Notes: generated by a model not told the origin, from the letters alone. Positions 20,624 to 46,924 are shown, counted from the first letter of the stretch. The stretch: 50,939 nucleotides of DNA from a bacterium (GCA_030615855.1 JAUWYL010000007.1:1-50939), one strand, 5' to 3'. Made by a program: numbers and translations.

Positions 20624-21607
20624 TTAGCCCACTTCTTTAATTATGCTTCTGACGTAGGCCGTTTCCTCTTCCAGAATCTTTCTCTTATCCTTCACCTGAT
20701 CCAGATACTTATAGGCCGTCTCCAGAACAATGAGTTCTGGCTCCAATTTCTTTACGATCTCAAAATAATTCTTAAGGTTCTTTCTTTTTAAGGGACCAGT
20801 CTCCAGATGGAGAGGAGGATGAAAGGTCTTCTCCCCGGGAACATAGTCATTGAGATGGAGCTCTTTTACCAGATCTTTAGGGATTCTTTCCATTATTCTT
20901 TCCGGTTCATCAGGGATATCTTTTCCGCAGTCTGCCCTGGTAAACCAGTGGCCAATGTCGAAGTTGAAGTAGACCTCTGTCCCCATCCTCCTTGCCTCTT
21001 CAACTACCTCAATGCAATCCTCTGGTTCAACGAAGATGTTATCAAAGGCGACATTATTCTCTAAATGGAGAAGCAAGCCCCTCTCTTGGGCATAACCTCC
21101 CAATTCTACTAAAGTCTTGACCAAGGCCTCTTTCAACTTTCTGAGGTAGAGTTTAGAGACCATATAGAAGGGAGCACTCCCCGGATGCATGATGAGATAC
21201 CTTGCTCCGATATCAGAAGCAAAATCAATGTATACCTTCTGTAGTTCCACCGCTTTTCTTCTATCCAGCTCCTGGAGACTGCAGACGCTCGAGCCAACAT
21301 TAGAATAGGAGAGATGCAAGGATAGAGAGACGCCCTCTTTTTCTGCCTTCTCTCTTACTCTCTTTCTCTCCTCTTTGCTAAAATCTGGATAGGGGTTAGG
21401 GACATCGCCATCGAGTTCCACATGACCCAGACCAAACTCCTTGGCCAATTTAATCTGGAAGAGGATATCCTTCTTAAACTTAACCAACCCCAAGGCATTC
21501 ATACTAAAGAGGTCATACTCTCCGCTCAGGACCTTCTTCTTTTCCTCTTTACTCAGTTTATCCAAGACAAAGGTGTTGGTAAAATTTCGACCTAACTTAA
21601 TCATCAT
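20624..21607 (-). CDS. Xylose-isomerase-like TIM-barrel protein (sugar phosphate isomerase/epimerase)
   Basis: A 327-residue AP-endonuclease-2-like TIM barrel. Metal-site motifs are visible: 'LHLSYSN', 'YLIMHPGSAPF', 'LHLENN', 'YFNFDIGHWF', 'ELHLND' and 'VLETAY'. This pattern fits isomerase/epimerase family PF01261, not a specific enzyme. It is last in the nucleoside salvage cluster after the pyrimidine phosphorylase, so a role on ribose or deoxyribose phosphates is plausible (inference). Two in-frame ATGs (21607, 21604) follow GGAGGAG. It is not a deoxyribose-phosphate aldolase; no deoC was found. Confidence 0.75.
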   Translation of the reverse strand: MMIKLGRNFTNTFVLDKLSKEEKKKVLSGEYDLFSMNALGLVKFKKDILFQIKLAKEFGLGHVELDGDVPNPYPDFSKEERKRVREKAEKEGVSLSLHLSYSNVGSSVCSLQELDRRKAVELQKVYIDFASDIGARYLIMHPGSAPFYMVSKLYLRKLKEALVKTLVELGGYAQERGLLLHLENNVAFDNIFVEPEDCIEVVEEARRMGTEVYFNFDIGHWFTRADCGKDIPDEPERIMERIPKDLVKELHLNDYVPGEKTFHPPLHLETGPLKRKNLKNYFEIVKKLEPELIVLETAYKYLDQVKDKRKILEEETAYVRSIIKEVG

Positions 21608-21751
21608 TACTCCTCCCTCTAAGAGTGGTTTACGGTTAACAGTGTACGGTTTACGGTAAACTGTAAACAGCCCGAAGGGCGGGCAAATTGATTAGTAGTT
21701 ATTCATCAGCGGGGCAAGTAAAACGCACCGCTCAACCGTAAACGATGTTTT
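21608..21751. repeat. GTTTACGGT word array with GC hairpin
   Basis: GTTTACGGTTAACAGTGTACGG is followed by its reverse-complement form GTAAACTGTAAAC. A small GCCC-GGGC hairpin sits at 21670-21680. Words like CTCAACCGTAAACG close the spacer. Same family as 38665-38705. Confidence 0.65.
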
Positions 21752-23080
21752 TTAGAGTTCTTCCACTCCTTTCTTCGTCACCCGGGCATAGAAGAACTTG
21801 GGCTTCTCAACCTTCTCTTTTCCTATCGTATAACTTGTTAAGAACTTCTCCTTTGCGTTCTCTATCTTTTTCCTATCGCCATCGGTATGGAAGATGGCTA
21901 AGGGTTCGCCCTCCTTTACCTCATCGCCTATCTTCTTCTTCAAGAGGACCCCTACACTGGAATCGATGACATCCTCCTTCTTCTGCCTTCCGGCACCCAA
22001 GACCTGGGAACTTACTCCCACGGAGAAGGCATCTATCTTCTGGACATATCCTTCTCCTAGACTCTCTACCTCTATCCTTTCTTTGCACTGGGGAAGGAGA
22101 GAAGGATCATCGATTGCCTTTGGATCCCCTCCCTGAGCCTTGACCATCTCCTTCAGTTTCTCCAGGCCCTTTCTATTCTCGATTACTTCCCTCAACCTTT
22201 CCCTGGCTTCCTTCAGATTCCTCACCACCTCAGAGATTAGGAGCATGTTCGCTCCCAATTCAATACATAACTCTTCTAAATCCTTAGGGCCTTCTCCTTT
22301 CAGAGTATCTATGGCTTCTTTGACTTCAATGGCATTCCCTATAGCATAACCCAAGGGCTCCTCCATACTGGTAATGAGAGCCACCATCCTCTTTCCCGCT
22401 CCCTTACCAATGGCGACCATGGCCTTTGCTAAGGCTAAGGCATCCTCATACTTCACCATGAAGGCCCCGGAACCGGTCTTGACATCCAGGACAATCCCAT
22501 CTGACCCGGCAGCCAGCTTCTTGCTCAGGATGCTTCCTGCAATTAGAGGGATGGAGTCCACAGTCGCCGTAACATCCCTCAGGGCATAGATCCTCTTATC
22601 TGCGGGTGCCAATTCCTTTGTCTGACCCATTAAAGCCAGACCAATCCTATTCACACTCTCGGTAAACTCTTCCATGGTAAGGGAAGTCTTGAATCCTGGG
22701 ATGGATTCCAACTTATCTATTGTTCCTCCGGTATGGCCCAGACCCCTTCCGGTCATCTTGGCTACCTTTCCTCCGGCAGCAGCAACTATAGGACCAAGCA
22801 CCAGGGTCGTGGTATCCCCTACTCCCCCTGTGGAGTGCTTATCGACCTTGAATCCCTTTATCCCTGAGAGGTCTACCCTATCGCCAGAGTTTACCATGGC
22901 CATGGTGAGATCCGTTGCCTCCTCTGGAGACATCCCCTGGAAGTAGACCGCCATCAGGAAGGCTGCCATCTGGTAATCGGGGATCTGATCTTTACAGTAA
23001 CCCTCGATCATGAAATTAATCTCTTCTCTACTTAATCTCTCTCCATTCCTCTTCTTTAAAATAAGATCATAGACCCTCAT
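21752..23080 (-). CDS. deoA: Pyrimidine-nucleoside/thymidine phosphorylase
   Basis: A 442-residue phosphorylase that splits uridine, thymidine or deoxyuridine to base and pentose-1-phosphate. Signatures: 'DKHSTGGVGDTTTLVL' phosphate loop, 'KMTGRGLGHTGGTIDKLESIPG' (family PROSITE pattern, spanning about 22 residues), 'SGAFMV' and a C-terminal domain of the pyrimidine phosphorylase type. Length is normal for DeoA/Pdp (430-445). ATG at 23080 with AGGAG six bases upstream; an open frame to 23149 translates spacer words. It fits the salvage block with punA, add and deoB: its bases feed the dihydropyrimidine pathway and its sugar phosphates feed DeoB. Whether it prefers uridine or thymidine cannot be read from sequence alone. 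Confidence 0.92.
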   Translation of the reverse strand: MRVYDLILKKRNGERLSREEINFMIEGYCKDQIPDYQMAAFLMAVYFQGMSPEEATDLTMAMVNSGDRVDLSGIKGFKVDKHSTGGVGDTTTLVLGPIVAAAGGKVAKMTGRGLGHTGGTIDKLESIPGFKTSLTMEEFTESVNRIGLALMGQTKELAPADKRIYALRDVTATVDSIPLIAGSILSKKLAAGSDGIVLDVKTGSGAFMVKYEDALALAKAMVAIGKGAGKRMVALITSMEEPLGYAIGNAIEVKEAIDTLKGEGPKDLEELCIELGANMLLISEVVRNLKEARERLREVIENRKGLEKLKEMVKAQGGDPKAIDDPSLLPQCKERIEVESLGEGYVQKIDAFSVGVSSQVLGAGRQKKEDVIDSSVGVLLKKKIGDEVKEGEPLAIFHTDGDRKKIENAKEKFLTSYTIGKEKVEKPKFFYARVTKKGVEEL

Positions 23081-23089
23081 TTTATCTCC

Positions 23090-23335
23090 TAATAAACATA
23101 GTTGACAAGTTAATAAGTCAATAAGTTGATAAGTGAATAAAAAAAACATTTGATTAGGGTTAAGGTTAGGTTGTTAGTTTGATTGTTAGGTTAGGTAGTT
23201 GGTCTTTAAACACCTAACTCTTACCTAACTATCAAACCCCTGTCTGCCGACAGGCAGGCACTACTTTGCCCTAACCCAACTACCAACGACTTTGGACAAT
23301 CTTGTCAACTTGTTCCCTTGTCAACTTGTTAACTG
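23090..23335. repeat. Nested palindromic word array with GACAGG hairpin
   Basis: Outer arms: GTTGACAAGTTAATAAGTC at 23100-23140 and CTTGTCAACTTGTTCCC at 23297-23335. Inner arms: GGTTAGGTTGTTAGTTTGATTG and CCTAACTCTTACCTAACTATC. A perfect CCTGTC/GACAGG stem lies at 23239-23254. The right outer arm runs into the punA 3' end and supplies its stop codon. Confidence 0.75.
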
Positions 23336-24121
23336 TATTTTAGTGATGATTTCTCTCACTAACTTCTTAAATTTGGTTTCTACTTTCTTGGTGGTCTCAA
23401 TCACTTCTTTATGAGAGAGGGGTTTCTTTAGGATTCCGGCGGCCATATTGGTGATGCAGGAGATGCCCAGGACCCTCATCCCCAGACTTTTGGCAACGAT
23501 GACCTCAGGAACGGTGGACATCCCTACGGCATCTGCCCCCAATTTCTCAAAGGCCTTGATCTCTGAGGGGGTCTCATAGTTCGGACCAGGGACCGCGATA
23601 TAGACTCCCTTCTTAATCTCGATTCCTTGATCCTTGGCTATCCGCTCTGTTAGTTCTATCAGGTTCTTATCATAGGTGAAGGTCATATCAATGAATTTTC
23701 TTCTTCCTCTCAAGGGATTCCCTCCCATAAAATTAATATGATCAGTAATAAGCATTAAATCTCCGGGTTTGAAGTCTTTATTTATTCCTCCGCCAGCATT
23801 GGTTACCATCAAGATTGCTGCTCCCAGTTCCTTCATCACCCTAACGGGATAGGTAATCTCCTCCAGAGAATAGCCTTCATAATAATGGCATCTCCCCTGC
23901 ATGGCCACCACCTTCTTCCCTTCCAGTTCTCCCATGACCAGATTCCCCTTATGCCCGGGAACCTTCGGTACTGGAAAGTGAGGAATCTCCTCATAGGGTA
24001 TGCTAACCCCTTCTATCTCATCCGCCAATGAGCCCAGGCCAGAACCCAAAATCAATGCAACTCTCGGTTTTAGATCCGTCTTCCCCCGAATAAATTCTAC
24101 ACTCTCCTCTATCTTTCCCAT
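23321..24121 (-). CDS. punA: Purine nucleoside phosphorylase
   Basis: A 266-residue trimeric-type purine nucleoside phosphorylase (inosine/guanosine specific). Signatures: 'LILGSGLGSLAD', 'VPGHKGNLVMG', 'QGRCHYYEGYS', 'VTNAGGGIN', 'YIAVPGPNYETPSEI' and the base-site 'AVGMSTVPEVIVA' then 'CITNMAAGI'. It converts purine nucleosides plus phosphate to base plus ribose-1-phosphate. The ATG at 24121 has AAGGAGAG upstream. Its last four or five residues (IQLTS) and stop fall in the spacer array, so the word array trims its end. It works with Add (adenosine to inosine) and DeoB. Confidence 0.94.
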   Translation of the reverse strand: MGKIEESVEFIRGKTDLKPRVALILGSGLGSLADEIEGVSIPYEEIPHFPVPKVPGHKGNLVMGELEGKKVVAMQGRCHYYEGYSLEEITYPVRVMKELGAAILMVTNAGGGINKDFKPGDLMLITDHINFMGGNPLRGRRKFIDMTFTYDKNLIELTERIAKDQGIEIKKGVYIAVPGPNYETPSEIKAFEKLGADAVGMSTVPEVIVAKSLGMRVLGISCITNMAAGILKKPLSHKEVIETTKKVETKFKKLVREIITKIQLTS

Positions 24122-24335: not shown

Positions 24336-25376
24336 TTAGTCTATCCCTAACTCCTGGAACTCCTTCTCAAATTCCCTCTTCAGGTCCGCTCTCTCTTTTT
24401 CAGTAGTAAAGGCGTGCTCTATGCCATTCAAGGTTATTTTTTTGATATCCTCCAAAGAGAGCTGATAGTACTCGATGGCCCTTATTATCTCGCTGGTCAG
24501 GGTGATATTGGATACGCTTCGATCGTCAGTATTTATAGTAACCGGGATTCCCAGATCATAGTATTCTCGGAAAGGATGGAGGTCGTACTCCTTGACTACC
24601 TGGGTCTGAACATTAGAGGTAAGACACATCTCTAAGGGAATCCTCTCTCTCTTTACTTTCTCTAATAGATCAGGGTCTTCTCTCAGGCGAACCCCGTGGC
24701 CGATGCGCCTGGCACCCAGGACCTCCAGGGCAAACCTTATATTCTCTGCACCTCCCGCCTCTCCCGCATGGACCGTGGCCGGGAGGTTATTTTTCTTGGC
24801 GATGAGGAAGGCCTCCTTCCTCTCTCCCACTGGGAAGTGGGCCTCATCCCCTGCCAAGTCAATCCCTGCTACTCCATTCTCTCTATATTTCAAGGCGAGA
24901 TTAACGGTCTGGATGGAGGTGATAGGAGGCTCTGAGCGATAGCAGCATAATAGAAGCAGAGTCCTTATCTTAAAATCCCTCCCTCCTCTCTTGAGCCCCT
25001 TCAGGACGCTTTTTACCACTTCTTCCATGGGGAAGCCTTCCCTCGCCTGAAGCACGGGAGCGAACCTCACCTCCATATACCTTATATTCTCTTTACTAGC
25101 ATCCTCACATAACTCATAGGAGATCCTCTCCAAGATCTCCGGGTCCTTCAGGACAGGATAGAATACCTCAAAGGCTTTAAGGAAGTCGGAGAGGCTTCGG
25201 CAATCAGGCGGGACCTGGACATATTTTGTCAATTCCTTCAAATCCTGAGTAGGGAGCCTGACCCCCATCTTATTCGCAGCGTCCCTTATGGTCCCCACCC
25301 GTACCGAGCCATCGAGATGGACGTGGAGGTCACACTTGGGAAGGCTATGGACCAGAGCGGGCGAGATTCTTCTCAT
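24336..25376 (-). CDS. add: Adenosine deaminase
   Basis: A 346-residue zinc deaminase converting adenosine or deoxyadenosine to inosine. Metal ligands and catalysis: '[11 protein letters not shown]' (two His), 'TVHAGEAGG' (His, Glu), 'RRIGHGVRL' (His) and '[10 protein letters not shown]' (Asp-Asp). '[11 protein letters not shown]' is the signature Ser-Asn motif. Length matches the family. The ATG overlaps the deoB stop (ATGA), so the two are translationally coupled. It channels adenosine to PunA. Confidence 0.94.
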
Positions 25377-26551
25377 CCCAGAATCTCCTTCTTGAAGCTC
25401 TTCCCTATTTTAAAGAGTTCAAAAGCGAATAGCTCAGCGATGGTCTGGGCGATATCGGTAAAGGTTTTTCTAATCCCTAAGTTTATGCCCCCCTTTGCCC
25501 TCTGGCCATAAACCAAGAGGGGAACATACTCCCTGGTATGGTCTGTCCCTGGGAAGGTAGGATCACAGCCATGGTCTGCGGTCAAAATTAAGAGATCATC
25601 CTCCCTGAGGTTGGCCACGATCTGAGGTAAGCGGGCATCGAAGGCCTCTAAGGCATCGGCATAACCTTCGGGATTATTCCGATGACCATACAAAGAATCG
25701 AAATCCACAAGATTAATAAAGATAAGGCCTCTGCTCTTCTCCTTCATAGCCAAAATAGTCTTATCCACCCCATCCATATTTCCTTTGGTGTGGATCTCTT
25801 CTGTCAATCCCTTACCAGCGAAGATATCTCCGATCTTTCCGATCCCGATTACCTGATAGCCCTTTTTTTTGAAACGATCGAGAAGGGTGTCCTCTGGAGG
25901 GGGAACGGACAAGTCCCTCCTCCTATCCGTTCTCACTAAGTAACCCGGTTCACCAACAAATGGCCGGGCGATGACTCTTTCCACACTATACTTCCCAGTT
26001 AACATCTTTCTTGCGATGCGGCACATCTTATATAATTCTTCTATCGGGATGACCTCTTCATGAGCGGCGATCTGAAAAACGCTATCCGCGCTAGTATAAA
26101 CAATTGGTTTCCCAGTTTCAAGATGCTCTGAGATATACTCCTCAATGATCACCGTTCCCGAGGCCTTCTTATTCCCCAGGATTCTCCTACCGATCGCCTT
26201 GGAGAAGGTCTTGATGACCTCTTCCGGAAAACCCTTAGGATAGGTGGGAAATCTCTTCCTCAGGATGAGACCCGCGATCTCCCAGTGACCAGAGGTAGTG
26301 GCCTTCTCATGGTTCAGCTCAGCCATCTTCCCGTAGGCCCCCCAAGGTTTATCTATGGGAGGAACCCCTTTGATATCTATGATGTTCCCTATCCCTAGCC
26401 ACCTCAGGTTAGGAAGGGACAATCCCCCTACCGCCTGGGCGATATGGCCCAAGGTATTGGAGCCCCGATCCCCGAACTTATGGGCATCGGGAAGTTCACC
26501 CACTCCTACGCTATCTAAGACAATCAAGACAACCCTATTAATCTTACCCAC
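25373..26551 (-). CDS. deoB: Phosphopentomutase
   Basis: A 392-residue alkaline-phosphatase-fold enzyme moving phosphate between C1 and C5 of (deoxy)ribose phosphates. '[17 protein letters not shown]' carries the first metal Asp; '[10 protein letters not shown]', '[14 protein letters not shown]' with the phospho-accepting Thr region, '[11 protein letters not shown]' and '[10 protein letters not shown]...TDHTRE' complete the two-Mn site. I chose the GTG at 26551, with GAGGAG six bases upstream, over the open frame to 26614, which translates a spacer and a recurrent CGAACGGTAGTGAG word. It begins the salvage block and overlaps add. Confidence 0.94.
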
Positions 26552-26589
26552 GCTTGTCTCCTCAATGGTTAAGATAAGTCTCACTACCG

Positions 26590-26682
26590 TTCGACAATCT
26601 TCACAGATTAGCACAGATTAAAAGAAACAGATGATCACAGATGGAATACATAGATAACCGCAGATATCTATCTCCATCTTTT
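26590..26682. repeat. CACAGATT word spacer
   Basis: ACAGATTAGCACAGATTAAAAG-type words, in one orientation, followed by ATCACAGATGG and a short AGATATCT palindrome near 26662. It separates the pyrimidine and nucleoside blocks. Confidence 0.6.
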
Positions 26683-29301
26683 TTATTTTGATACAGGGGG
26701 AATGACCGGTTTTTTATTTTTAACTTCTTTATAAGTTATCATAGGTGGATTATCTACCGGGCATATAAAAGAACAGATCATACAGCTTAAACATTTTTCT
26801 TCATCCTGAACCGGTCTTCGTTTTTCACTATCCCATTCAAGAGATTGTCCCCCGGCATCCTGACAGACAATATAACACTGGCCGCATCCGATGCAACGGT
26901 CAAGGTCAAATTCTGCAATTCCCTGACGTGTTAAATCAAAGGCATCCGTGGGGTGAAGATGAGGCAACGCCTTTCCCACAATATCCTTCACTCCCTTATA
27001 CCCCTTTTCCTCCATAAAATCAGAAAGGCCCTCGCACATATCCTCAACAATCCTGTGGCCATAATGGATAACACCGGTTGTCATCTGAACAACTGAGGCC
27101 CCGCATAACAGGTATTCAACCGCGTCAATCCAGGTCTCTATCCCCCCGCATCCTACAAGAGGTAAATTTAATTCAGAAGACTGGGCCATTTCGGCAATAA
27201 ACCTCAAACCAATTGGTTTAACTGCCGGACCTGAATATCCGCTTATTGCGCCCTTCCCAGCAACATTGGGCTTGGGGACATAATCGTCCAGTCCAATCTC
27301 AGTAAGGGCACGAACAGTGTTAATAGCGGTAATACCATCTGCACCACCTTTTTTGGCAAATAATGCCGGTTCAGTCATGTCGGTAATGTTGGGAGTCATT
27401 TTTGCCAGTATCGGTATTTTAACCACATTTCTTACTGCAGCAGTAAACCTTTCTATAAGATCGAATGCCTGCCCTACTTTCATACCTGAACCTTCCACCG
27501 TCATGTGGGGGCAGGAAAAATTCAGCTCAAGCATATCTGACCCAATCCCTTCAGCCATCTTTGCCAGTTCAACCCATTCATACTCTGAAAAGCCCATAAG
27601 ACTTGCTATAACAACATGTTTGGGCCAATGTTTCTTCAGGTATTTAATATCCCGAAGATTATCTTTAAGCGGTCTATCCGTTATCTGTTCAACGTTTTGA
27701 AGACCGACTAATTTTTTGTCTTCATAATTGTACTTTGCCATTCTGGGAGCTGGATGTATTATTTTTATTTTATCAAAGCCAAGGGTTTTATAGGCGACAC
27801 CGCCGAATCCATGGTCAAACGCCCTGCCAATCATCTCCCCGGTATTGGATACCGGTGAAGAAGATAATAAAAATGGTGTGGGAAACCTGATCCCGCACAT
27901 CTCAATACTTAGATCTTTCGTTCTATCCATTTTTATCCTTCTGGTAAGCTGAATATTTTCTTTACCCAAACTCCTGATTATCTTCTTTGCCGCTTCCTTT
28001 CCATCCGCTAAGGCCTCTACGGCAAGTGCCGATCCCCTGACTATATCTCCACCGGCAAAAATCTTTTTATCCGCAGTGGATATGCCATCCCTTTTCGTGG
28101 TTATCAGGTTATTCCTTTTATACTTGATTTTTGAAGATAAATCCCTGATTCCCGCCTCCGGACCGGAACCAATAGCCATAACAACCGTATTGACTTCGAG
28201 ATCGAATTCCGTACCTGATACTGGCCGGGCATTTGATGGGATAAATAAATTTGGTTTGACCCATTCCGTTTCGTTCCCTTTTACTCCCGCAACTCGGCCT
28301 CTCTCCCCAATGATTTCCGTTACCTGGCATTGTGGTTTAATAATAACGAAATTATCTCTTGCCATTTCGAGGTCATCTTTAGCAGCAGGTATCTCTGCTA
28401 AACTTTCCAGACATATACAATATACCTTTTTTGCGCCAAGTCCTTTACAGGTATTGGCAACATCCATTGCTACCGAACCGCCTCCAATAATAGCCACGTT
28501 CTTATTTTTAACCATTCGGGTAATCTTACCTTTGTTTCCATTACGGACGAATTCTAAAAACTCGGTAGCCGTGGTAACGTTTTTTAAATCAGAACCCGGT
28601 ATCTTAATTTTATAAGGGTTCCATAAACCGGTAGCTATAAATACCGCCTTAAATCCTTTCTTAATAAGATTATCAACACCCTTAGCTCCTATTCGAGATT
28701 TACATTTAATTTTAACGCCAAGCTTTTTGACATCTTCTAACTCTCTATCAAGAAATTCACTGTTCAACCTGAACTCAGGAACACCATATCTAAGAACACC
28801 GCCTGGTTTCTCTTTTGATTCAAACACAGTGACATTAAAGCCTGCTTTGGCAAGTTCGGCAGCACAGGATAATCCTGCAGGCCCGGAACCCACAATGGCA
28901 ACTTTCTGTTTTCTCTTGGCACCTTTTCTTAGGGGATTAAAACCTGTCTCCCAGGCGTATTCCACCAGGAATCTCTGCAATTTTCCTATCTCAATGGGTC
29001 GGTCAATTTCAGTTGCACTGCAGGCCTTTTGACACAGTTTTTCATTGGGACAGACAATCCCGCATATACCTCCTAAAATATTATTTTCTTTAATAGTCCT
29101 TACCGCCCCCTTAATATCTCTTAATCGCAATTTTCTGATAAAAGTCCCCGGGTCAGTATCAGCAGGACATTCTTGACTACAGGGAGCATCATAACATAAC
29201 AAACATCTTGAAGCTTCAATAATAGCCTGACTAAGGTCAAAACCCTTCTTCATATCTAAAATGTTTTCTACCCGGTTACTTTTTCTTTTGGCAGATTTCA
29301 T
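26683..29301 (-). CDS. preA: Dihydropyrimidine dehydrogenase, PreT-PreA fusion
   Basis: An 872-residue fusion with the domain order of eukaryotic DPD. An N-terminal [4Fe-4S] region (C33-C90, 'CLLCYDAPCSQECP', 'CGIVCPNEKLCQKAC') precedes the FAD site 'VAIVGSGPAGLSCAAEL' and NAD(P) site 'VAIIGGGSVAMDVANTC'. From about 455 a FMN TIM barrel ('LNFSCPH', 'ILAKMTPNITD', 'GGIETW') leads to two C-terminal [4Fe-4S] motifs ('CIGCGQCYIVC', 'CLSCMICSFICP'). It reduces uracil or thymine to the dihydro form. Like E. coli PreA, the position of the eukaryotic catalytic Cys is Val ('GMKVGQ'). The ATG has AAAGGAGG. The DNA looks visibly more A+T-rich than its neighbours. Confidence 0.93.
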   Translation of the reverse strand: MKSAKRKSNRVENILDMKKGFDLSQAIIEASRCLLCYDAPCSQECPADTDPGTFIRKLRLRDIKGAVRTIKENNILGGICGIVCPNEKLCQKACSATEIDRPIEIGKLQRFLVEYAWETGFNPLRKGAKRKQKVAIVGSGPAGLSCAAELAKAGFNVTVFESKEKPGGVLRYGVPEFRLNSEFLDRELEDVKKLGVKIKCKSRIGAKGVDNLIKKGFKAVFIATGLWNPYKIKIPGSDLKNVTTATEFLEFVRNGNKGKITRMVKNKNVAIIGGGSVAMDVANTCKGLGAKKVYCICLESLAEIPAAKDDLEMARDNFVIIKPQCQVTEIIGERGRVAGVKGNETEWVKPNLFIPSNARPVSGTEFDLEVNTVVMAIGSGPEAGIRDLSSKIKYKRNNLITTKRDGISTADKKIFAGGDIVRGSALAVEALADGKEAAKKIIRSLGKENIQLTRRIKMDRTKDLSIEMCGIRFPTPFLLSSSPVSNTGEMIGRAFDHGFGGVAYKTLGFDKIKIIHPAPRMAKYNYEDKKLVGLQNVEQITDRPLKDNLRDIKYLKKHWPKHVVIASLMGFSEYEWVELAKMAEGIGSDMLELNFSCPHMTVEGSGMKVGQAFDLIERFTAAVRNVVKIPILAKMTPNITDMTEPALFAKKGGADGITAINTVRALTEIGLDDYVPKPNVAGKGAISGYSGPAVKPIGLRFIAEMAQSSELNLPLVGCGGIETWIDAVEYLLCGASVVQMTTGVIHYGHRIVEDMCEGLSDFMEEKGYKGVKDIVGKALPHLHPTDAFDLTRQGIAEFDLDRCIGCGQCYIVCQDAGGQSLEWDSEKRRPVQDEEKCLSCMICSFICPVDNPPMITYKEVKNKKPVIPPVSK

Positions 29302-29309
29302 TTTATACC

Positions 29310-30935: not shown

Positions 30936-30960
30936 CCTTCAACGTATACCGAAATCCCTG

Positions 30961-35188: not shown

Positions 35189-35227
35189 CTTTATCAACCT
35201 CTTTATGCACAGATTAGCACTGATTGC

Positions 35228-36578: not shown

Positions 36579-36655
36579 CCTTCCCCCTTTTATATTCGTG
36601 TTGATTCGTGTTTCCATCTCTCCCGTTTTCGCTTTACAGTTCGCGTTGATTCGCG
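36579..36655. repeat. TTCGTGTTGATTCG word spacer
   Basis: ATTCGTGTTGATTCGTG, then TTCGCGTTGATTCGCG words; one orientation only. It makes a false ATG extension for the CoA-transferase. Confidence 0.5.
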
Positions 36656-38649: not shown

Positions 38650-38664
38650 TTTTCTCTCACCTAG

Positions 38665-38705: not shown

Positions 38706-38711
38706 TTCTTG

Positions 38712-39848
38712 TTATCCAAGAATAGCAAGTAGGATTCCAGCGGCGATAGCAGAACCGATCACTCCCGCCACATTGGGGCCCATAGCATGCATTAATAAGA
38801 AGTTACTGGGATCCTCCCTCTGTCCCTCCTTCTGTACCACCCGGGCCGCCATGGGGACGGCAGAAACTCCTGCCGCACCGATCAGAGGATTGATAGGTTC
38901 TTTGGAGAAGAAGGACATAAGCTTACCAAAAAGCACCCCGCTTGCCGTGGCAATGGAGAAGGCGATCACTCCTAAGACCAGTATCTTCAGGGTAACCAAA
39001 GTGAGGAAGGTCTCTCCCCTCATAGTGGCTCCGATGCATATCCCTAAGAATATAGTGGTGATATTTATGATCTCGTTCTCTGCCGTACGGGCCAGCCTCT
39101 TCACCACCCCGCTCTCCCTCATCAAGTTTCCCAGCATGAACATCCCGATTAAAGGAGAGGCCTTGGGGACTAATAGGATACATAGGATGGCAACGATTAA
39201 GGGAAAGAGTATTTTCTCCCTTCTTGAGACCGGACGCAGTTGCTTCATAATAATCTTTCTCTCCTCTTTAGTAGTAAGAAGCCTCATGATAGGGGGCTGG
39301 ATGAGGGGGACCAGGGCCATATAGGAGTAGGCAGCAATAGCGACCGGTCCCATCAAATGGGGAGCGAGGATAGAGGTAGTGAAGATGGCGGTTGGACCAT
39401 CTGCACCACCAATGATTCCTATGGAGCCTGCTTCAGGGAGGGTAAAGCCTAATCCAATGGCGCCCAAGAGAGTGGCGAAGATCCCGAACTGGGCCGCAGC
39501 CCCCAAGAGAAAGGTCTTGGGATGAGCCAGAAGGGGGCCGAAATCGGTCATGGCTCCGATACCCAAGAAGATTAAAGGAGGGAAAATGCCATATTTTATT
39601 CCGAAGTAGAGGTAGTAGAGCATCCCTCCTTCCTCCATTATTCCGGATAGAGGGATATTGGCCAATATGCTCCCGAAACCGATAGGAATGAGAAGTAATG
39701 GTTCATACTTCTTGGCGATGGCTAAGTAGATTAATAGGCATCCAACCCCAATCATGATTATATTCTGATAAGTGAGGTTGGTATATCCAATATTTTCTAA
39801 GAGGCTAGCAAATGCCCTTCCCAGATTCTGGATTTGAGAGAAAAACAT
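38712..39848 (-). CDS. Na+-translocating decarboxylase beta subunit
   Basis: A 378-residue polytopic membrane protein of the OadB/GcdB/MmdB family. Signatures: '[10 protein letters not shown]', '[14 protein letters not shown]' with the Na+-site Asp, '[11 protein letters not shown]', '[11 protein letters not shown]' and '[15 protein letters not shown]'. It uses carboxybiotin decarboxylation to move Na+ outward. Length fits the family. The ATG overlaps the biotin carrier stop by one base (TAATG). Whether the whole enzyme is a methylmalonyl-CoA, malonyl-CoA or glutaconyl-CoA decarboxylase depends on the carboxyltransferase at 40598. Confidence 0.93.
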
Positions 39849-40231
39849 TACTTTCTTCCTAAAGGAGTAAGGATCATGAGAAGGTTCCCAATATCCACCT
39901 TCTCTCCCTTCTTCACCTTGATCTCCTTAACCACCCCTTTAGCAGGGGTAATGATGGCGTTCTCCATCTTCATGGCCTCCAAGATGATGACCGTCTCTCC
40001 TGCCTTTACCTTATCCCCTACCTGCTTCTTTATCTCTATGATGAGCCCCGGGATGGGAGAGGTGATATCAATTTCCTTCTTAGTAACGCGGGGGGCTTGA
40101 GGAATGAGGAGCTTCTTAATGCTTACCTCTACCCCAGGCCTCTTGGAAGGAATAGGAGCCTGAGCAGAGGTCTCTTCCTCTATCTCCACCTCAAATACCT
40201 TTCCATTTACCTTAATCCTAAACTTCCTCAT
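39848..40231 (-). CDS. Biotin carrier subunit of Na+-pumping decarboxylase
   Basis: A 127-residue GcdC/MmdC-like biotin carrier. Short N-terminal beta segment ('[17 protein letters not shown]'), a Pro/Ser linker, then biotinyl domain '[17 protein letters not shown]' with 'EAMKMENAI'. The linker is much shorter than in typical GcdC. The ATG overlaps the OadG-like stop (ATGA) and the stop overlaps the beta subunit start. Carboxybiotin shuttles from the carboxyltransferase to the beta subunit. Confidence 0.88.
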
Positions 40232-40515
40232 CTAAGAACCCTTCTTCTAATGAGGGAGGTTCTCATCTGCTCTTCCCTCTTCCTCCTCGCCCATCTGGAT
40301 GGCTTATAGTGAACCTCGCTCTCTGGTGATTCTAAGGCGACTAAGGCAGCGGATAAGGCGGCAATGGTCTCCTTCTCCCTTCCTGGATAGCGGGTAACCT
40401 TCTTCTTAGAAAGCCGGGCTAACAGTCGCATAATAATGACCAGGAGAAACAAGGAAGCGAAGACGATGAGCATCCCAACGATGACAATGGATATCCCGCT
40501 CAGCCACTTCTCCAT
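40228..40515 (-). CDS. OadG-like gamma/delta subunit
   Basis: A 95-residue protein with one membrane helix (about residues 8-32, 'IVIVGMLIVFASLFLLVIIM') and a cytoplasmic tail with 'ETIAALSAALVAL' and a basic Trp-containing end ('SRWARRKREEQM'). OadG-type subunits anchor the carboxyltransferase to the membrane. The tail motif recurs at the end of the biotin carboxylase at 37135. ATG preceded by GCGAGGGTG from the word CCGAGCGAAGCGAGG. Confidence 0.82.
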   Translation of the reverse strand: MEKWLSGISIVIVGMLIVFASLFLLVIIMRLLARLSKKKVTRYPGREKETIAALSAALVALESPESEVHYKPSRWARRKREEQMRTSLIRRRVLR

Positions 40516-40597: not shown

Positions 40598-42241
40598 CTA
40601 TAGTGGTATATTCCCATGCTTCTTCTGGGGTCTCGATTCTCCCTTTGAGGAAAACATCTCTAAGGCCTTGATGAGTTGGGGTCTGGTCTCATAGGGTTCG
40701 ATGACCTTATCCACATATCCCCGGCGGGCAGCAACATAGGGATTGGCGAACTTCTTTGTATACTCCGCTATCTTCTTTGCCAGGACCTCTTGAGGCTTCT
40801 TGCTTGAGGCGATTTCCTTTTTATATACGATCTCTGCTGCTCCCTGGGGACCCATGACCGCGATCTCTGCAGTGGGCCAAGCATAGACGGCATCCGCCCC
40901 TAAGTGCCGGGAGCACATCCCGATATATGCCCCTCCATATGCCTTTCTGAGGATGATAGTTAATTTGGGTACTGTGGCCTCAGAGTAGGCATATAAGAGC
41001 TTTGCCCCATGCCTAATCACTCCCCCATGCTCCTGGTCTGTTCCTGGCAAGTATCCCGGGACATCGACAAAGGTAACCAGAGGGATATTAAAAGAGTCAC
41101 AGAATCTGACAAACCTGGCTGCTTTATCAGAACTATTGACATCCAAGACCCCTGCTAAGACCTTGGGCTGATTGGCAATAATGCCTACGGAGTAACCGTT
41201 CAATCTTCCAAAGCCGATGACCATATTGGGGGCGAAATAGGACTGTATCTCAAAGAACTCGGAAGCATCGACCACCTTCTCAATGACATCCCGCACATCA
41301 TAGGGCTTCTTGGGGATGGTGGGGACCAGATTGGCTAAGGTCTCATCCATCCGGTTAGGATCATCACCCAAGTCAATGATGGCCGGCTCCTCCAGGTTAT
41401 TGGAGGGGATGTAACTTAAGAGTTTCTTCAGAAGATTAAAGGCTTCCTCCTCAGATTCGCAGGCAAAGTGGGCCACCCCGGATAATTGGTTATGGGCCAT
41501 GGCCCCTCCTAATTCCTCCTGACTAACATCCTCTCCCGTGACGGTCTTTACCACATCCGGGCCAGTGATGAACATCCTGCTAATTCCCTTCACCATGAAG
41601 GTGAAGTCGGTGATGGCGGGGGAATAGACCGCTCCTCCCGCACAGGGACCCAAGATGACTGAGATCTGAGGGATTACCCCAGAGGCAAGAGTATTCCTAT
41701 AGAATATATCTCCATAACCTTTCAGGGAATCCACCCCTTCCTGAATCCGAGCCCCTCCAGAGTCATTTATCCCAATTAGAGGAACGCCCATCTTCATGGC
41801 CAGATCCATGACCTTGCATATCTTCTGGGCATGCATCTCACCCAGACTTCCCCCAGCAATGGTGAAGTCCTGGGCAAAGAGACAGACCCTCCTTCCATCC
41901 ATGCGACCATAACCCGTGACCACTCCCTCACCAGGAAGGGCTTTCTTATCCATCCCTAAATCTGTTGCCCGGTGTCTAACGAAGATATCCGTCTCCTCAA
42001 AGCTTCCGTCATCCAACAAAAGGTCGATCCTCTCTCTTGCCATAAGCTTTCCTTTCTTATGCTGGGCTTCGATCCTCTCCTTCCCACCCCCTAAGAAGAT
42101 CTTCTCTCTCTTCTCCTTTAGTTCGGCCATCTTCTGGGCTATGGTAGCCTTGGGTATCACCTCTACCCCAGGAGGCCTCTTCACCACTTCTTTCTTCAAC
42201 TTCTTCTTCAGAATCCCTTTGATCTTTTTAAAGATTGGCAT
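40598..42241 (-). CDS. mmdA: Acyl-CoA carboxyltransferase / decarboxylase alpha subunit
   Basis: A 547-residue carboxyltransferase of the MmdA/PccB type. Signatures: '[16 protein letters not shown]', '[16 protein letters not shown]', '[14 protein letters not shown]', '[20 protein letters not shown]' and '[11 protein letters not shown]' for the CoA and carboxybiotin pockets. It moves the carboxyl of malonyl-CoA or methylmalonyl-CoA to biotin, or back. An extra N-terminal segment of about 30 Lys-rich residues precedes the usual start ('[16 protein letters not shown]'). ATG at 42241 with AGGAGG six bases upstream. First gene of the decarboxylase set. Not the oxaloacetate type. Confidence 0.92.
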
Positions 42242-42257
42242 CTCTTTCCTCCTTTTT

Positions 42258-42341
42258 GACACGGATTTTTTTGCATTGCTTACTGCTTAGGCAAAAACAC
42301 CGCGGATTGTCACGGATTCATCCGTTTCTTTAAATCCGTGC
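42258..42341. repeat. CACGGATT palindromic spacer
   Basis: GACACGGATTTTTTTGC and GCGGATTGTCACGGATTC on the left, AATCCGTGCTCATCCGTGC on the right. The right arm enters the 3' end of the transketolase gene. Confidence 0.65.
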
Positions 42342-43286
42342 TCATCCGTGCTTATGTTCCAGGACTTCTTCTGCTGCCTTTACGATATCGTTGGAATCGA
42401 GGTTAAACTCTTTGATTAGTTCCTCTGGTGTTCCCGACTCTCCAAACCTATCCTGAATGCCAATGAACCTCATGGGAACGGGATAGTTCTCCACCACTAC
42501 CTCTGCCACAGCACTCCCAAACCCTCCCATGATCTGATGTTCCTCACAGGCGATGATGGCTCCGGTCTCTTTAGCTGCCTTTATAATTGCCTCCTTATCA
42601 ATGGGCTTTACCGTATGAAGGTTAATTACTCTGGCACTTACTCCCTTCTTCTCTAACTTCTCTGCCGCCTTTAATGATTCACAGACCATGTAGCCACAGG
42701 CGATTAGAGAGACATCCTTTCCTTCTCTAAATGTTGCTGCTTTTCCGAGCTTGAAAGGGGTATCCTTTTTAGTAATTACTGGTATCTTCTCCCTTCCAAA
42801 TCGGATATAGGCCGGACCCTTAATCTCTGCGGCTAGCATAGTCGCCTTATAGGTCTCAATGGCATCGCAGGGAACGATGACCTTCATGTTGGGTAAAACT
42901 CTCATGAGAGTAATCTCCTCTAAGGCCTGGTGGGTAGCACCATCCGGGCCAACAGAAACCCCACCATGAGCCCCTCCGATCTTGACATTGAGGTTAGCAT
43001 AGCAGATGGTAGTCCTTATCTGATCCCAGGCCCTTCCAGCAACAAAGACTCCATAGGTTGAGACAAATGGTATCTTTCCTGTCAAGGATAGACCAGCAGC
43101 GGTATTGAGCATATCCTGCTCAGCAATCCCGATCTCGAAGAATCGATCGGGGAACTTCTCAGCAAACCATAATGTTCGGGTAGAATCGGTTAAGTCCGCA
43201 CCTAAGACAACCACTTTGGGATTGGTCTTTCCTAACTCAACTAATGCCTCTCCATAACCATCCCTCGTCGCTTTCATCTCTGTCAT
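42342..43286 (-). CDS. tkt: Transketolase C-terminal subunit
   Basis: A 315-residue chain equivalent to the pyrimidine-binding and C-terminal domains of transketolase. 'FEIGIAEQDMLNTAAGLS' has the cofactor Glu; 'GGAHGGVSVGPDGATHQALEEI' (in part) and 'RFGRE' are also family motifs. It pairs with the N-terminal chain just upstream; split transketolases are common in archaea and anaerobes. ATG at 43286 with AGGAGG nine bases upstream. It would move C2 units between pentose phosphates released from nucleosides. Confidence 0.93.
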   Translation of the reverse strand: MTEMKATRDGYGEALVELGKTNPKVVVLGADLTDSTRTLWFAEKFPDRFFEIGIAEQDMLNTAAGLSLTGKIPFVSTYGVFVAGRAWDQIRTTICYANLNVKIGGAHGGVSVGPDGATHQALEEITLMRVLPNMKVIVPCDAIETYKATMLAAEIKGPAYIRFGREKIPVITKKDTPFKLGKAATFREGKDVSLIACGYMVCESLKAAEKLEKKGVSARVINLHTVKPIDKEAIIKAAKETGAIIACEEHQIMGGFGSAVAEVVVENYPVPMRFIGIQDRFGESGTPEELIKEFNLDSNDIVKAAEEVLEHKHG

Positions 43287-43299
43287 CTTTCTAAACCTC

Positions 43300-43391
43300 C
43301 TTATAATCACAGATTAGCACAGATTAAAGGATACAGATTATCACAGATAAATCCGTGTGTATCAGTGTTGTTATCCGTGTCTATCCGTGTT
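43300..43391. repeat. CACAGATT / TCCGTG palindromic spacer
   Basis: ATCACAGATTAGCACAGATT and ATCACAGATAA on the left; ATCCGTGTGTATCAGTG and TATCCGTGTCTATCCGTG on the right. Confidence 0.65.
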
Positions 43392-44258
43392 CTAGGCTTC
43401 CGCTTCTTCCAACTGCTCTTTGGTCGGTTTCATATTTAGTTCCTTTAAGGCCAGTTCTATCTGCTCTCCCTTGGGTGCCACACCATGCCACTCTGCCTTA
43501 TCTTCCATGAAGGAGACCCCTTTCCCTTTTATGGTGTGGGCAATAATCATGGTGGGCTTCCCCTTTGTCCTCTCCGCCTCATCATAGGCATCCATCACTT
43601 CCTTTATACTATGGCCATCGATCTCGATGACATGCCAGCCGAAGGACGCCCACCTCTCCTTTACTGATTCTAATTTCATGACATCCTCAGTGAAGCCGTC
43701 TATCTGTAATCTATTCCGATCGATAATGGCGCAGAGGTTATCTAACTTATAATGGGACGCGGTCATGGCTGCCTCCCAGACCTGGCCCTCATCCGTCTCC
43801 CCATCTCCTAAGAGGCAGTAGACCCGATAATCCTTTCTATCCAACCTAGCACCTAAAGCGATGCCATTGGCGATGGATAGCCCCTGGCCTAAAGAGCCGC
43901 AGGAGGTCTCTAAGCCGGGAAGGTAGAGCATATGGGGATGTCCCTGCAACCGGGAATGTAACTTCCTCAAGGTCATTAATTCCTCTTTCGGGAAATAGCC
44001 ACATCTGGCCATAACGGTATATAGAGCGGGGCAGATATGCCCTTTGGAAAGGATGAACCTGTCCCTATCCGGCCAATCTGGCTTCTTGGGTTCGTGTCGC
44101 ATCTTATAATAATAAAGTCCGGTCAGTATCTCAACAGATGATAATGAGCCACCTGGATGGCCGCTCCCTGCTTCACCCAGCATCTTGATGATATCCTTTC
44201 TGATCTCCGTTGCCTCCTTCTCTAGTTTCTTAATATCCGGTCTCTTCTTTTCTTCCAT
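43392..44258 (-). CDS. tkt: Transketolase N-terminal subunit
   Basis: A 288-residue thiamine-diphosphate-binding chain. 'GSGHPGGSLSSVEIL', 'DRFILSKGHICPALY', 'CGSLGQGLS' and the ThDP motif 'GDGETDEGQVWEA' with closing 'DRNRLQIDG' are all present. Usual length for the split form. ATG at 44258 with AAGGAGG. The C-terminal chain follows after 105 bases. Confidence 0.94.
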   Translation of the reverse strand: MEEKKRPDIKKLEKEATEIRKDIIKMLGEAGSGHPGGSLSSVEILTGLYYYKMRHEPKKPDWPDRDRFILSKGHICPALYTVMARCGYFPKEELMTLRKLHSRLQGHPHMLYLPGLETSCGSLGQGLSIANGIALGARLDRKDYRVYCLLGDGETDEGQVWEAAMTASHYKLDNLCAIIDRNRLQIDGFTEDVMKLESVKERWASFGWHVIEIDGHSIKEVMDAYDEAERTKGKPTMIIAHTIKGKGVSFMEDKAEWHGVAPKGEQIELALKELNMKPTKEQLEEAEA

Positions 44259-44279
44259 AATTTAACCTCCTTATGCACG

Positions 44280-44412
44280 GATTAGTTTAAATTTAAAAAT
44301 CAAATATTAAAAATTAAAATTACATATTAAAATCCAAAATTTTAAACTTTGATTTGTCATTTTGCACTTTGATTTTTGCATTTTGCATTTAGTCATCGTG
44401 TCTATCCGTGTT
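44280..44412. repeat. Dispersed AT-rich element, copy 2 (inverted relative to 35 kb)
   Basis: Reverse-complement match to 35228-35354. AAATCAAATATTAAA words, ATTAAAATCCAAAATT, then TGCACTTTGATTTTTGC and GCATTTT units, ending TCTATCCGTGTT. The end overlaps the glutamate dehydrogenase stop. Confidence 0.85.
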
Positions 44413-45661
44413 ATGGATAGATTCCCCTTAACCTCGTGGCTTCTGCCACTCGAGAAACGGCTAACATATAAGCAGCAGTCCTCATATCCACCTTCTCCTG
44501 TTGATAAACCTTCAAGACATCCTGAAAACCCTTTACCATTACCTTCTCTAACTGAGCATTCACCTCTTCCTCTGTCCAGAAGTGGAACTGGAGGTCCTGC
44601 ATCCATTCAAAATAACTGACCGTCACTCCACCAGCATTGGCTAAAATATCGGGAATGACGAATATCTTATTCCTGGCCAGTATCTCATCCGCTCCAGGAG
44701 TAGTCGGCCCATTGGCCGCCTCAGCAATGATCTTAGCTTTGATTCTCTCTGCGTTCTCTTCTGTTATCTGATTCTCTAAAGCAGCGGGAACCAAAACATC
44801 ACATTTTAGTTCCAGAAGTTCGCTATTTGTGATTGCCTCTCCTTTCTCATACTCCTTCACCGAGCCGGTTCTACTCTTATATTCCGCGAGTTTAGCAGGA
44901 TCGAGGCCTTTCCTGTTATAGATTCCACCCCGGGAATCAGAAACAGCAATTATTTGGGCACCCTTTTCTCCTAAGATCCGGACTATTCCAGCACCGGCTG
45001 CACCATATCCCTGGACTGCTATGGTTGCCCCCTGGAGGTCCAGACCAAGGTATTGGAGAGCCTGTTGAACAGTGAATACCACTCCCCAGGAAGTAGCATC
45101 CTTCCTTCCTTTGGTACCGCCTAGGGCTAAAGGTTTCCCAGTCACTACCCCGGGAACAGTAAAGCCCTGAGCCATGGAATAGGTATCCATAATCCAGGAC
45201 ATAATCTGGGAATCGGTATAGACATCAGGAGCCGGAATGTCCTTCTCCGGGCCAATAATAACCGAAATCTCATAGGTAAATCTCCTGGTCAATCTTTCTA
45301 TCTCTCCCAAAGACATCTCTTTTGGGTTACACGTAACTCCACCTTTCGCGCCCCCGTAAGGAATACCCACCACGGCACACTTCCAGGTCATAGCCATGGC
45401 CAGGGCCTTTATCTCATCCAGGGTAACCGTGGGATGATACCTTATCCCCCCTTTTGACGGCCCCCTATCCACATTATGCTGTACCCGATAACCAGTGAAT
45501 ACCTCTAAGGAACCATCATCCATCTTTACTGGAATGGAGACGATGAGCTGCCTTTTGGGAAACTTAAGCTTCTTATGCAAACCAGGGTCGAGTTTGAGTT
45601 TTTCCGCTGCTCTATCCAGTAATTCCAGACCAATCTGAAAAGAACTGTGTTTCTCTGCCAT
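44411..45661 (-). CDS. gdhA: Glutamate dehydrogenase (Glu/Leu/Phe/Val family)
   Basis: A 416-residue dehydrogenase. Catalytic Lys lies in 'GIPYGGAKGGV', substrate residues in 'GPSKGGIRYHP', Rossmann loop 'VQGYGAAGAGIV'. 'DVYTDSQIMSWIMDTY' is typical of glutamate rather than leucine dehydrogenase. It could recycle 2-oxoglutarate for the beta-alanine transaminase and release NH3, producing NAD(P)H. Cofactor preference not decided. ATG with GGAGG upstream. It stands alone between word spacers. Confidence 0.93.
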   Translation of the reverse strand: MAEKHSSFQIGLELLDRAAEKLKLDPGLHKKLKFPKRQLIVSIPVKMDDGSLEVFTGYRVQHNVDRGPSKGGIRYHPTVTLDEIKALAMAMTWKCAVVGIPYGGAKGGVTCNPKEMSLGEIERLTRRFTYEISVIIGPEKDIPAPDVYTDSQIMSWIMDTYSMAQGFTVPGVVTGKPLALGGTKGRKDATSWGVVFTVQQALQYLGLDLQGATIAVQGYGAAGAGIVRILGEKGAQIIAVSDSRGGIYNRKGLDPAKLAEYKSRTGSVKEYEKGEAITNSELLELKCDVLVPAALENQITEENAERIKAKIIAEAANGPTTPGADEILARNKIFVIPDILANAGGVTVSYFEWMQDLQFHFWTEEEVNAQLEKVMVKGFQDVLKVYQQEKVDMRTAAYMLAVSRVAEATRLRGIYP

Positions 45662-45692
45662 TCCTATAAGCCTCCTCTCAAAACAATTCTGT

Positions 45693-45757
45693 AACCACGG
45701 ATTACACAGATTTTACGGATTATTTTTAAATCTGTCTAATCCGTCTAATCTGTGGTT
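45693..45757. repeat. Palindromic CACGGATT/AATCTGTG spacer
   Basis: AACCACGGATTACACAGATT on the left and TCTAATCCGTCTAATCTG then TGGTT on the right. The two 30-base arms match as reverse complements at about 24 of 30 positions. Confidence 0.75.
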
Positions 45758-46924
45758 TCATTGAAGTCTTAAATTCTTTATTCTTTTTACTGCTTCCTTT
45801 ATTCTTGATTTATCGACCGTTAAAGCCGCCCGGATATAGCCCTCACCAGATTTACCAAAACCGTTCCCCGGGGTCATGACGATTCCACACTTCTCCAGTA
45901 AGGTCTCGCAGAGCTTCGCTGAAGTATATTTCTCGGGTACCGGAATCCAAACATAGAAGGCCACCTTTGGCAGAGGAACATCCCAGCCCAGGCTATTCAA
46001 TCCATTTACTAAAATATCCCTTCTCTCCTTATAGGTAGCGACATTTTGAGCAATGCACTCCTGCGGGCCGGCCAAGGCCTCCATCCCGGCATACTGGATG
46101 GCCTGGAAAACCCCGGAATCGATATTGGTCTTTATACTCCCCAACCCGGCCAGGATATTACTATTACCCACCGCAAAGCCTATCCTCCAGCCGGTCATAT
46201 TATAGGTCTTGGACAAGGAGTGGAACTCTATTCCCACCTTTCTCGCTCCTGCTATTTCTAAGAAACTGGGCGGCTTATAACCTTCGTAGCCCAGCTCAGA
46301 GTAGGTGGCATCATGGCAGACGATAACATCATTCTCTTTAGCGAACTTGACCACTTTCTTGAAGAAGTCTTTATCTGCTACGGCAGAGATGGGATTATTG
46401 GGATAATTGATAAACATTAATTTTGCTTTTTTGGCAATCTTTCTATCAATGGCCCCCAAATCTGGTAGAAAATTATTCTCTCTCAATAAAGGCATGGAAT
46501 GAGGAATTCCACCAGCAAGAGTCACCCCTGCCCGATATACCGGATAGCCCGGATCGGGAATGAGGGTTAAGTCTCCCTCATTTATAAAAGCCAGAGGAAT
46601 GTGACCTATCCCCTCCTTGGCTCCAATGAGAGTAAGAACCTCTCTCTCTGGATCCAACTCGACATTAAATCTCTTTTTATACCAGGAGGCAACCGCTTTC
46701 CGGAATTTGAGCATTCCTTCATAAGTAGGGTATCTATGATTCTTAGGGTCCTTGGCTGCCCTATATAATGCCTCGATGATATGGTTTGGGGTAGGAAGGT
46801 CCGGATCCCCCACTCCAAAGTCAATGATATCCACACCTTTAGCAATTGCTTCCCTCTTCGCCCTATCGATCTGAGCAAAGAGATAAACGGGTAGTTTCTC
46901 TATTCTTTCTGCTCTTTTAATCAT
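45758..46924 (-). CDS. dapL: LL-diaminopimelate aminotransferase
   Basis: A 388-residue class I/II aminotransferase. 'DFGVGDPDLPTP', 'RYPTYEGMLKFRKAV', 'INYPNNPISAVA', 'HDATYSELGYEGYKPPSFLE' (about 20 residues) and the PLP Lys in 'HSLSKTYNMTGWRIGF' match DapL. It forms LL-diaminopimelate for lysine and cell wall synthesis. dapF lies about 2.5 kb upstream on the same strand, which supports the call over a generic aspartate aminotransferase. ATG preceded by GTGAGG seven bases away, within the word GCCGAACAAAGTGAGGC. Confidence 0.9.
   Translation of the reverse strand: MIKRAERIEKLPVYLFAQIDRAKREAIAKGVDIIDFGVGDPDLPTPNHIIEALYRAAKDPKNHRYPTYEGMLKFRKAVASWYKKRFNVELDPEREVLTLIGAKEGIGHIPLAFINEGDLTLIPDPGYPVYRAGVTLAGGIPHSMPLLRENNFLPDLGAIDRKIAKKAKLMFINYPNNPISAVADKDFFKKVVKFAKENDVIVCHDATYSELGYEGYKPPSFLEIAGARKVGIEFHSLSKTYNMTGWRIGFAVGNSNILAGLGSIKTNIDSGVFQAIQYAGMEALAGPQECIAQNVATYKERRDILVNGLNSLGWDVPLPKVAFYVWIPVPEKYTSAKLCETLLEKCGIVMTPGNGFGKSGEGYIRAALTVDKSRIKEAVKRIKNLRLQ

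Follow-up and report, generated by a model that had tools for sequence, protein, structure and literature searches.

The 50,939-nucleotide contig JAUWYL010000007.1 (assembly GCA_030615855.1), analysed over its full length and termed the window here, carries an island of consecutive genes at positions 20624-46924. With a probability of roughly 0.5, the island is a nucleoside-fermentation region in which pyrimidine bases are converted to (methyl)malonyl-coenzyme A (CoA), followed by decarboxylation with export of Na+. The window is contig C6 of G000, a bacterial metagenome-assembled genome of 1.375 Mb in 45 contigs (93.6% complete), and derives from an uncultured sediment bacterium of an isolated lineage, anaerobic as proposed. 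G000 was compared with five relatives, G001-G005, and the six genomes are referred to as the family; the next relatives share only the domain with G000.

In the proposed route, nucleosides would be split, and transketolase and a separate SPU-type microcompartment would receive their sugar phosphates. Uracil and thymine would be reduced and opened to yield beta-alanine and beta-aminoisobutyrate, from which a class III transaminase would produce malonate or methylmalonate semialdehyde. A tungsten enzyme of the aldehyde:ferredoxin oxidoreductase (AOR) family probably oxidizes the semialdehyde to malonate or methylmalonate and reduces ferredoxin, which Rnf or NfnAB could use; a class III CoA-transferase probably shifts CoA from acetyl- or propionyl-CoA onto the acid. 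The carboxyltransferase MmdA would then transfer the carboxyl group from (methyl)malonyl-CoA to biotin, and in this species an OadG-BCCP-OadB cassette would free CO2 while exporting Na+. A conserved biotin carboxylase and second biotin carrier would allow MmdA to work as an ATP-dependent acyl-CoA carboxylase too, with fatty-acid synthesis as one possible use.

Gene content and order of the island

Open reading frames (ORFs) and family searches placed all island genes on the minus strand, as follows.

20624-21607, minus: PF01261 sugar-isomerase-like TIM barrel protein, last island gene (family search; kept in G002 and G003)
21752-23149, minus: pyrimidine-nucleoside phosphorylase, deoA/pdp type (NCBIfam, above cut-off)
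23321-24121, minus: purine-nucleoside phosphorylase, punA (NCBIfam, above cut-off)
24336-25376, minus: adenosine deaminase, add (TIGR01430, above cut-off)
25373-26614, minus: phosphopentomutase, deoB (NCBIfam, above cut-off)
26683-29301, minus: fused PreT-PreA, dihydropyrimidine dehydrogenase, 872 amino acids (PreA model above cut-off; domain order that of animal DPYD)
29390-30733, minus: class III omega-aminotransferase, putative beta-alanine/beta-aminoisobutyrate transaminase (family search)
30961-32337, minus: dihydropyrimidinase/D-hydantoinase (TIGR02033, 478 bits against a cut-off of 393)
32435-33343, minus: CN-hydrolase, putative beta-ureidopropionase (family search and solved-structure matches)
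33356-35242, minus: AOR-family tungsten oxidoreductase, aldehyde:ferredoxin (PF01314 and PF02730; matches solved AORs)
35391-36617, minus: class III CoA-transferase (PF02515; best solved match YfdE)
36656-37162, minus: second biotin carrier BCCP2, motif EAMKMES (family search; kept in relatives)
37135-38649, minus: biotin carboxylase, full-length (family search; sole Biotin_carb_C in the genome)
38712-39848, minus: OadB, Na+-translocating decarboxylase beta subunit (TIGR01109, 536 bits against 190.6)
39848-40231, minus: biotin carrier BCCP1, motif EAMKMEN (family search)
40228-40515, minus: OadG-like small membrane subunit (TIGR01195, 33.2 bits, cut-off 36; PF04277, 25.3, cut-off 27; position in the cassette)
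40598-42262, minus: MmdA-type carboxyltransferase (sole PF01039 in the genome; best solved match Thermotoga maritima 1vrg)
42342-43310, minus: transketolase, C-terminal half (family search)
43392-44258, minus: transketolase, N-terminal half (family search)
44411-45661, minus: glutamate dehydrogenase (family search)
45758-46924, minus: class I/II aminotransferase, first island gene (PF00155)

Every gene named in a preliminary description of this DNA was confirmed as intact and on this one strand. That description had missed the biotin carboxylase (37135-38649) and BCCP2 (36656-37162), which lie between the Na+-pump genes and the CoA-transferase gene, and also the PF01261 gene (20624-21607). It had pointed to related genomes as the place to look for the same arrangement, and there the order deoA-punA-add-deoB-PreTA-aminotransferase-dihydropyrimidinase-CN hydrolase-AOR-CoA-transferase-BCCP2-biotin carboxylase-...-MmdA-transketolase recurs in G002 and G003, with parts of it in G001, G004, and G005. 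Given that consecutive genes on the same strand have strong family matches and that their order is kept in G002 and G003, the grouping is far beyond chance. The slot of the class III aminotransferase is filled by a different one, 33% identical, in G001 and G003, a second class III CoA-transferase (54%) is present in G001 and G005, and PreT and PreA are separate proteins in G003. Such class-preserving replacements are more telling than order alone.

The presence of nucleoside phosphorolysis and the full reductive pyrimidine path in one region, also claimed in the preliminary description, was borne out by the gene content and by the order recurring in relatives, and this part of the locus is solid. 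The best solved match of the fused PreT-PreA protein was pig dihydropyrimidine dehydrogenase (DPD; 1gt8), to which it aligned along its length with Asn-609, Glu-611, Ile-613, Asn-668, Ser-670, Cys-671, Asn-736, and Thr-737 of the pig enzyme all kept; these residues we take to form the substrate (uracil) pocket, including the catalytic cysteine. The dihydropyrimidinase matched solved D-hydantoinases and dihydropyrimidinases. Fly beta-ureidopropionase (2vhh) and N-carbamoylputrescine amidohydrolase matched the CN-hydrolase at almost equal score, so that its assignment as a beta-ureidopropionase comes from its context. The nearest solved relative of the class III aminotransferase was taurine:2-oxoglutarate aminotransferase, a class that also accepts beta-alanine.

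Fusion of PreT and PreA as in animal DPYD was seen in a single genus (G000, G001, and G002; window 26683-29301). The two proteins are split in G003 (L028, 13988-16721), at only 41-51% identity. A second PreT-PreA pair, about 40-46% identical, was present at L030 (G000, contig C8), L032 (G001, contig C12), and L027 (G003, contig C59), accompanied by one or two further, distinct oxidoreductases of the AOR family and by a small protein that is ferredoxin-like in G000; genes for an amidohydrolase and tyrosyl-tRNA synthetase lie close to this second pair in G000 and G003.

The sugar side of the pathway was found in loci on G000 contig C23 (L200 and L201) and G002 contig C29 (L199 and L022), which encode DeoC with an N-terminal extension, RpiB, an EutE-like acylating aldehyde dehydrogenase, PduL, acetate kinase (AckA), and BMC-H. 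Also encoded there are small BMC-P/EutN-like ORFs, an RnfC/PduS-like protein, a triosephosphate-isomerase (TpiA)-like ORF, and an NfnAB-like pair; the assignments as EutN-like and TpiA-like were made by eye from translations. The microcompartment locus and the island share one 64-kb contig in G002, which demonstrates the physical link in that genome, outside the G000 window. SPU microcompartments have been proposed to use DNA degradation products or DNA-derived sugars, and their published signature, a DeoC-type aldolase and RpiB with shell proteins and an aldehyde dehydrogenase, was found here (PMC8217296). Because this signature is present and linked to the island in G002, the nucleoside reading is stronger than the preliminary description could know. 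With the gene order common to relatives and the SPU locus on the island contig of G002, assignment as a nucleoside-fermentation region is well supported.

Window positions 50231-50939 overlap the left end of contig C23 (L200, 1-709) over 709 bases. As this overlap is only 87% identical, the G000 bin consists of contigs of two related populations. The PF01261 protein and a nearby P-loop protein (window 18870-21607) have ∼40-50% identical paralogues in the microcompartment region (L201, 5018-7788), adjoining a methylthioadenosine (MTA)-phosphorylase gene, and represent a duplicated neighborhood. The opposite part of the window (849-18515) is occupied by a type II secretion/type IV pilus cluster with two GspE/PilB paralogues, PilT, GspF, PilM, GspK, and GspJ, within which lies a PhnD-like binding protein (11198-12175).

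The carboxyltransferase and the sodium pump

Of 20 positions compared with the solved pump, 19 are unchanged in OadB, among them all six reported as essential (Glu-40, Asp-203, Arg-304, Asn-311, Ser-382, and Asn-412) (PMC7274780). On the evidence of family matches, of these residues and of the conserved biotin motif, MmdA, BCCP1, and OadB hold as components of the complete biotin-dependent Na+ decarboxylase initially described; the OadG-like subunit scores just under the Pfam and NCBIfam cut-offs.

The pump is not shared by the relatives. At the corresponding site in G002, G003, and G004, a short BCCP separates MmdA from biotin carboxylase, and in G001 biotin carboxylase comes directly after MmdA, so that OadB and OadG are missing from the junction in all four relatives spanning it. 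Incomplete genomes were ruled out as the cause of this absence, because contigs cover the junction in each of the four. The preliminary description had counted the pump as part of the island; OadB was detected in one of the six family genomes, and its absence from all five relatives indicates that the island can do without the Na+ step. Of the suggested link between pyrimidine breakdown and a Na+ pump, the nucleoside and pyrimidine genes and the pump genes are thus real, the pump being lineage-specific and not family-wide.

The cassette is preceded by a spacer that has a homologous counterpart in G002, and BCCP1 is ∼60% identical (over 85 amino acids) to the shorter resident BCCP, the flanking genes being about 90% identical. 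The best OadB match elsewhere among 386 genomes (72%) was in an unrelated genome. The simplest reading of these comparisons is that a three-gene OadG-BCCP-OadB cassette was gained in this species only, replacing the resident carrier gene. Ancestral presence of the Na+-pump genes followed by loss would be less parsimonious, given the divergence of the carrier relative to its flanks and the unrelated source of the nearest OadB.

A different module occupies the island in G001 and G005, where genes for a mutase, a B12-binding domain, MeaB, and an epimerase lie between those for the CoA-transferase and the AOR. Methylmalonyl-CoA mutase was present in these two genomes and was not found in G000, G002, G003, or G004. 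Because the products of the variant modules act on methylmalonyl-CoA or close analogues, (methyl)malonyl-CoA is likely the shared intermediate.

Decarboxylation of oxaloacetate, which yields about -30 kJ/mol, moves 2 Na+ (PMC8473912). By analogy, the pump can conserve energy when operating in the decarboxylating direction. G000 encodes an Rnf/Nqr-type subunit, and its V-ATPase rotor subunit (NtpK-like) scored 130 bits against the Enterococcus Na+ type (2bl2) and at most 36 bits against proton types. The LPGTQG, QG, and VETYA segments, which presumably bind Na+, are kept in this rotor. Sodium bioenergetics is therefore plausible in the family, with or without OadB.

Inspection of G000 revealed MmdA as the only carboxyltransferase and the adjoining enzyme as the only biotin carboxylase detected. 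A biotin carboxylase (Biotin_carb_C) was found in five of the six family genomes, and biotin carboxylase, BCCP, and carboxyltransferase are encoded together in the window and in relatives. Ketoacyl synthases of fatty-acid synthesis were present in all six, so that a source of malonyl-CoA is needed. Given these genes and the position of the sole carboxyltransferase beside the sole biotin carboxylase, the MmdA set may also be the cell's acetyl-CoA carboxylase.

A serious, although less probable, alternative to decarboxylation with Na+ export goes further: MmdA, biotin carboxylase, and the carriers would simply form the acetyl-/propionyl-CoA carboxylase for fatty-acid synthesis, their position next to the pyrimidine genes reflecting common regulation or coincidence, and OadB would be a late addition that decarboxylates surplus acyl-CoA or bleeds the pathway. 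The single copies and the ketoacyl synthases are as this alternative predicts; MmdA-biotin carboxylase-BCCP is the common arrangement in the relatives, and similar clusters with a mutase or epimerase occur in other lineages. It leaves unexplained, however, why an AOR and a class III CoA-transferase lie between the carboxylase set and the beta-ureidopropionase gene, why the Na+ pump is intact, and why G001 and G005 carry the mutase/epimerase variants.

More tentatively still, one carboxyltransferase might simultaneously serve a biotin carboxylase powered by ATP and a Na+ pump acquired by horizontal transfer. Pyrimidine-derived (methyl)malonyl-CoA would then have two possible fates, biosynthesis or the build-up of a sodium gradient, with carboxybiotin connecting the pools of ATP and Na+. 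Across the family, the module fed by pyrimidine breakdown would have been exchanged, being a sodium pump in one genome and a simple carboxylase or a mutase route in others.

The oxidoreductase and CoA-transferase steps

The AOR contains the AFOR N and C domains and keeps the four cluster cysteines (CxxCxxxC and RGAC); its real start is probably an ATG 18 codons into the 33356-35242 ORF. In the CoA-transferase, alignment with YfdE showed the aspartate of the G-T-S-x-A-D motif to be kept, a residue that we assume to be catalytic in class III CoA-transferases. YfdE is an acetyl-CoA:oxalate CoA-transferase, and malonate is one carbon longer than oxalate. For a classical aldehyde dehydrogenase of the methylmalonate-semialdehyde type, G000 yielded no strong candidate, only the EutE-like enzyme and a shorter, ProA-sized one. 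The substrates that we infer from the neighborhood, semialdehydes for the AOR and malonate or methylmalonate for the CoA-transferase, are the weakest links of the pathway.

Instead, the AOR might act on acetaldehyde produced by deoxyribose-phosphate aldolase or on other aldehydes, the CoA-transferase might take acetate or another acid, and the ring carbon might leave as beta-alanine or 3-hydroxypropionate. DeoC in the linked compartment locus does make acetaldehyde, the closest solved relatives of the enzyme are general AORs, and the AOR of Pyrococcus furiosus is promiscuous. Acetaldehyde is already served, however, by the EutE-like dehydrogenase of the microcompartment locus. The AOR gene, moreover, lies 12 bases upstream of the beta-ureidopropionase gene, and the island AORs of family members form their own well-supported clade, separate from the AORs adjoining the second PreT-PreA pair and from the genome's other AORs. 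We regard an acetaldehyde-directed function as unlikely.

The nearest AOR outside the family (49%), on Chloroflexi contig L042, adjoins a class I/II aminotransferase, with a class III aminotransferase 2.3 kb away and no dihydropyrimidinase. This contig hints at an association between AOR and transaminase beyond the family.

Several observations weigh against the proposed route from pyrimidine bases to Na+ export. An AOR or MmdA was nearby in none of 18 dihydropyrimidinase loci of other lineages, and among the 80 nearest AOR loci in named genomes none outside the family had pyrimidine neighbors. Within the family, conserved order is weak evidence on its own, because the neighboring pilus genes are syntenic too. 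The single biotin carboxylase and single carboxyltransferase beside fatty-acid-synthesis genes favor an anabolic role for MmdA, and OadB was confined to G000, none of the five relatives searched having it.

Reversal of OadB, with the Na+ gradient driving biotin carboxylation and acetyl- or propionyl-CoA being converted to malonyl- or methylmalonyl-CoA at no ATP cost, would fit an MmdA shared with an anabolic-type biotin carboxylase and a cassette that replaced the carrier gene only, but is very improbable, as the OadB systems that have been characterised export Na+ when they decarboxylate their substrate (about -30 kJ/mol in the case of oxaloacetate) and an ATP-dependent route is already encoded. 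Reversal of the biotin carboxylase to make ATP in the relatives was likewise thought unlikely, on energetic grounds.

Relation to known systems

In sediments, nucleic acids provide food in abundance, and a widespread microcompartment deals with their sugars, but anaerobic energy gain from pyrimidine bases is poorly described. If correct, the proposed pathway would show concretely how uracil and thymine can feed ferredoxin reduction and a Na+ gradient, and the relatives would form a natural series in which one energy-conserving module is exchanged with the rest of the region unmoved. In the literature searched, a partial library, no paper joining an AOR or a Na+ decarboxylase to pyrimidine breakdown was found, in agreement with the earlier statement that no described pathway unites these parts in one locus. 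No module is new in itself; what appears to be undescribed in that literature is the way in which they are combined and their exchange at a single point.

The pump resembles the Na+-translocating methylmalonyl-CoA decarboxylase of Veillonella and Propionigenium modestum in having MmdA, a biotin carrier, an OadB-type subunit with intact sodium-site residues, and a small OadG-like subunit. It differs in lying inside a pyrimidine-degradation locus and adjoining a biotin carboxylase and a second carrier. In other lineages, the 20 best OadB loci inspected all lacked such a biotin carboxylase nearby, and no locus among the 19 best for MmdA outside the family had both a clear biotin carboxylase and OadB. 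The Na+ malonate decarboxylase of Malonomonas rubra ties malonate decarboxylation to Na+ export via an OadB-like subunit. Acyl-carrier-protein thioesters are used there, whereas CoA thioesters would be used here, with malonate proposed to come from uracil.

A propionyl-/acetyl-CoA carboxylase operon (MmdA/PccB, biotin carboxylase, and BCCP) has the same subunits, in the order seen in G002, G003, and G004, a mutase and an epimerase being added in G001 and G005. In the window, by contrast, OadG-BCCP-OadB stands in place of the carrier gene, and the set belongs to a nucleoside/pyrimidine locus with an AOR. Clusters in which MmdA is joined by biotin carboxylase, by BCCP, and by methylmalonyl-CoA mutase or epimerase recur in several unrelated lineages (L251-L267, for example in G014, G063, G139, and G135).

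All four steps of reductive pyrimidine catabolism (PreTA/DPD, dihydropyrimidinase, beta-ureidopropionase, and transaminase) are represented here, with the DPD pocket residues kept. The island differs from the known pathway in the fusion of PreT with PreA and in continuing with an AOR and a CoA-transferase, not with a CoA-acylating semialdehyde dehydrogenase or a reductase. Finally, the likeness to SPU-type microcompartments (PMC8217296) extends to DeoC, RpiB, the EutE-like aldehyde dehydrogenase, shell proteins, PduL, and acetate kinase; the distinguishing feature, shown in G002, is that these genes share one contig with nucleoside phosphorolysis and a base-degradation branch.

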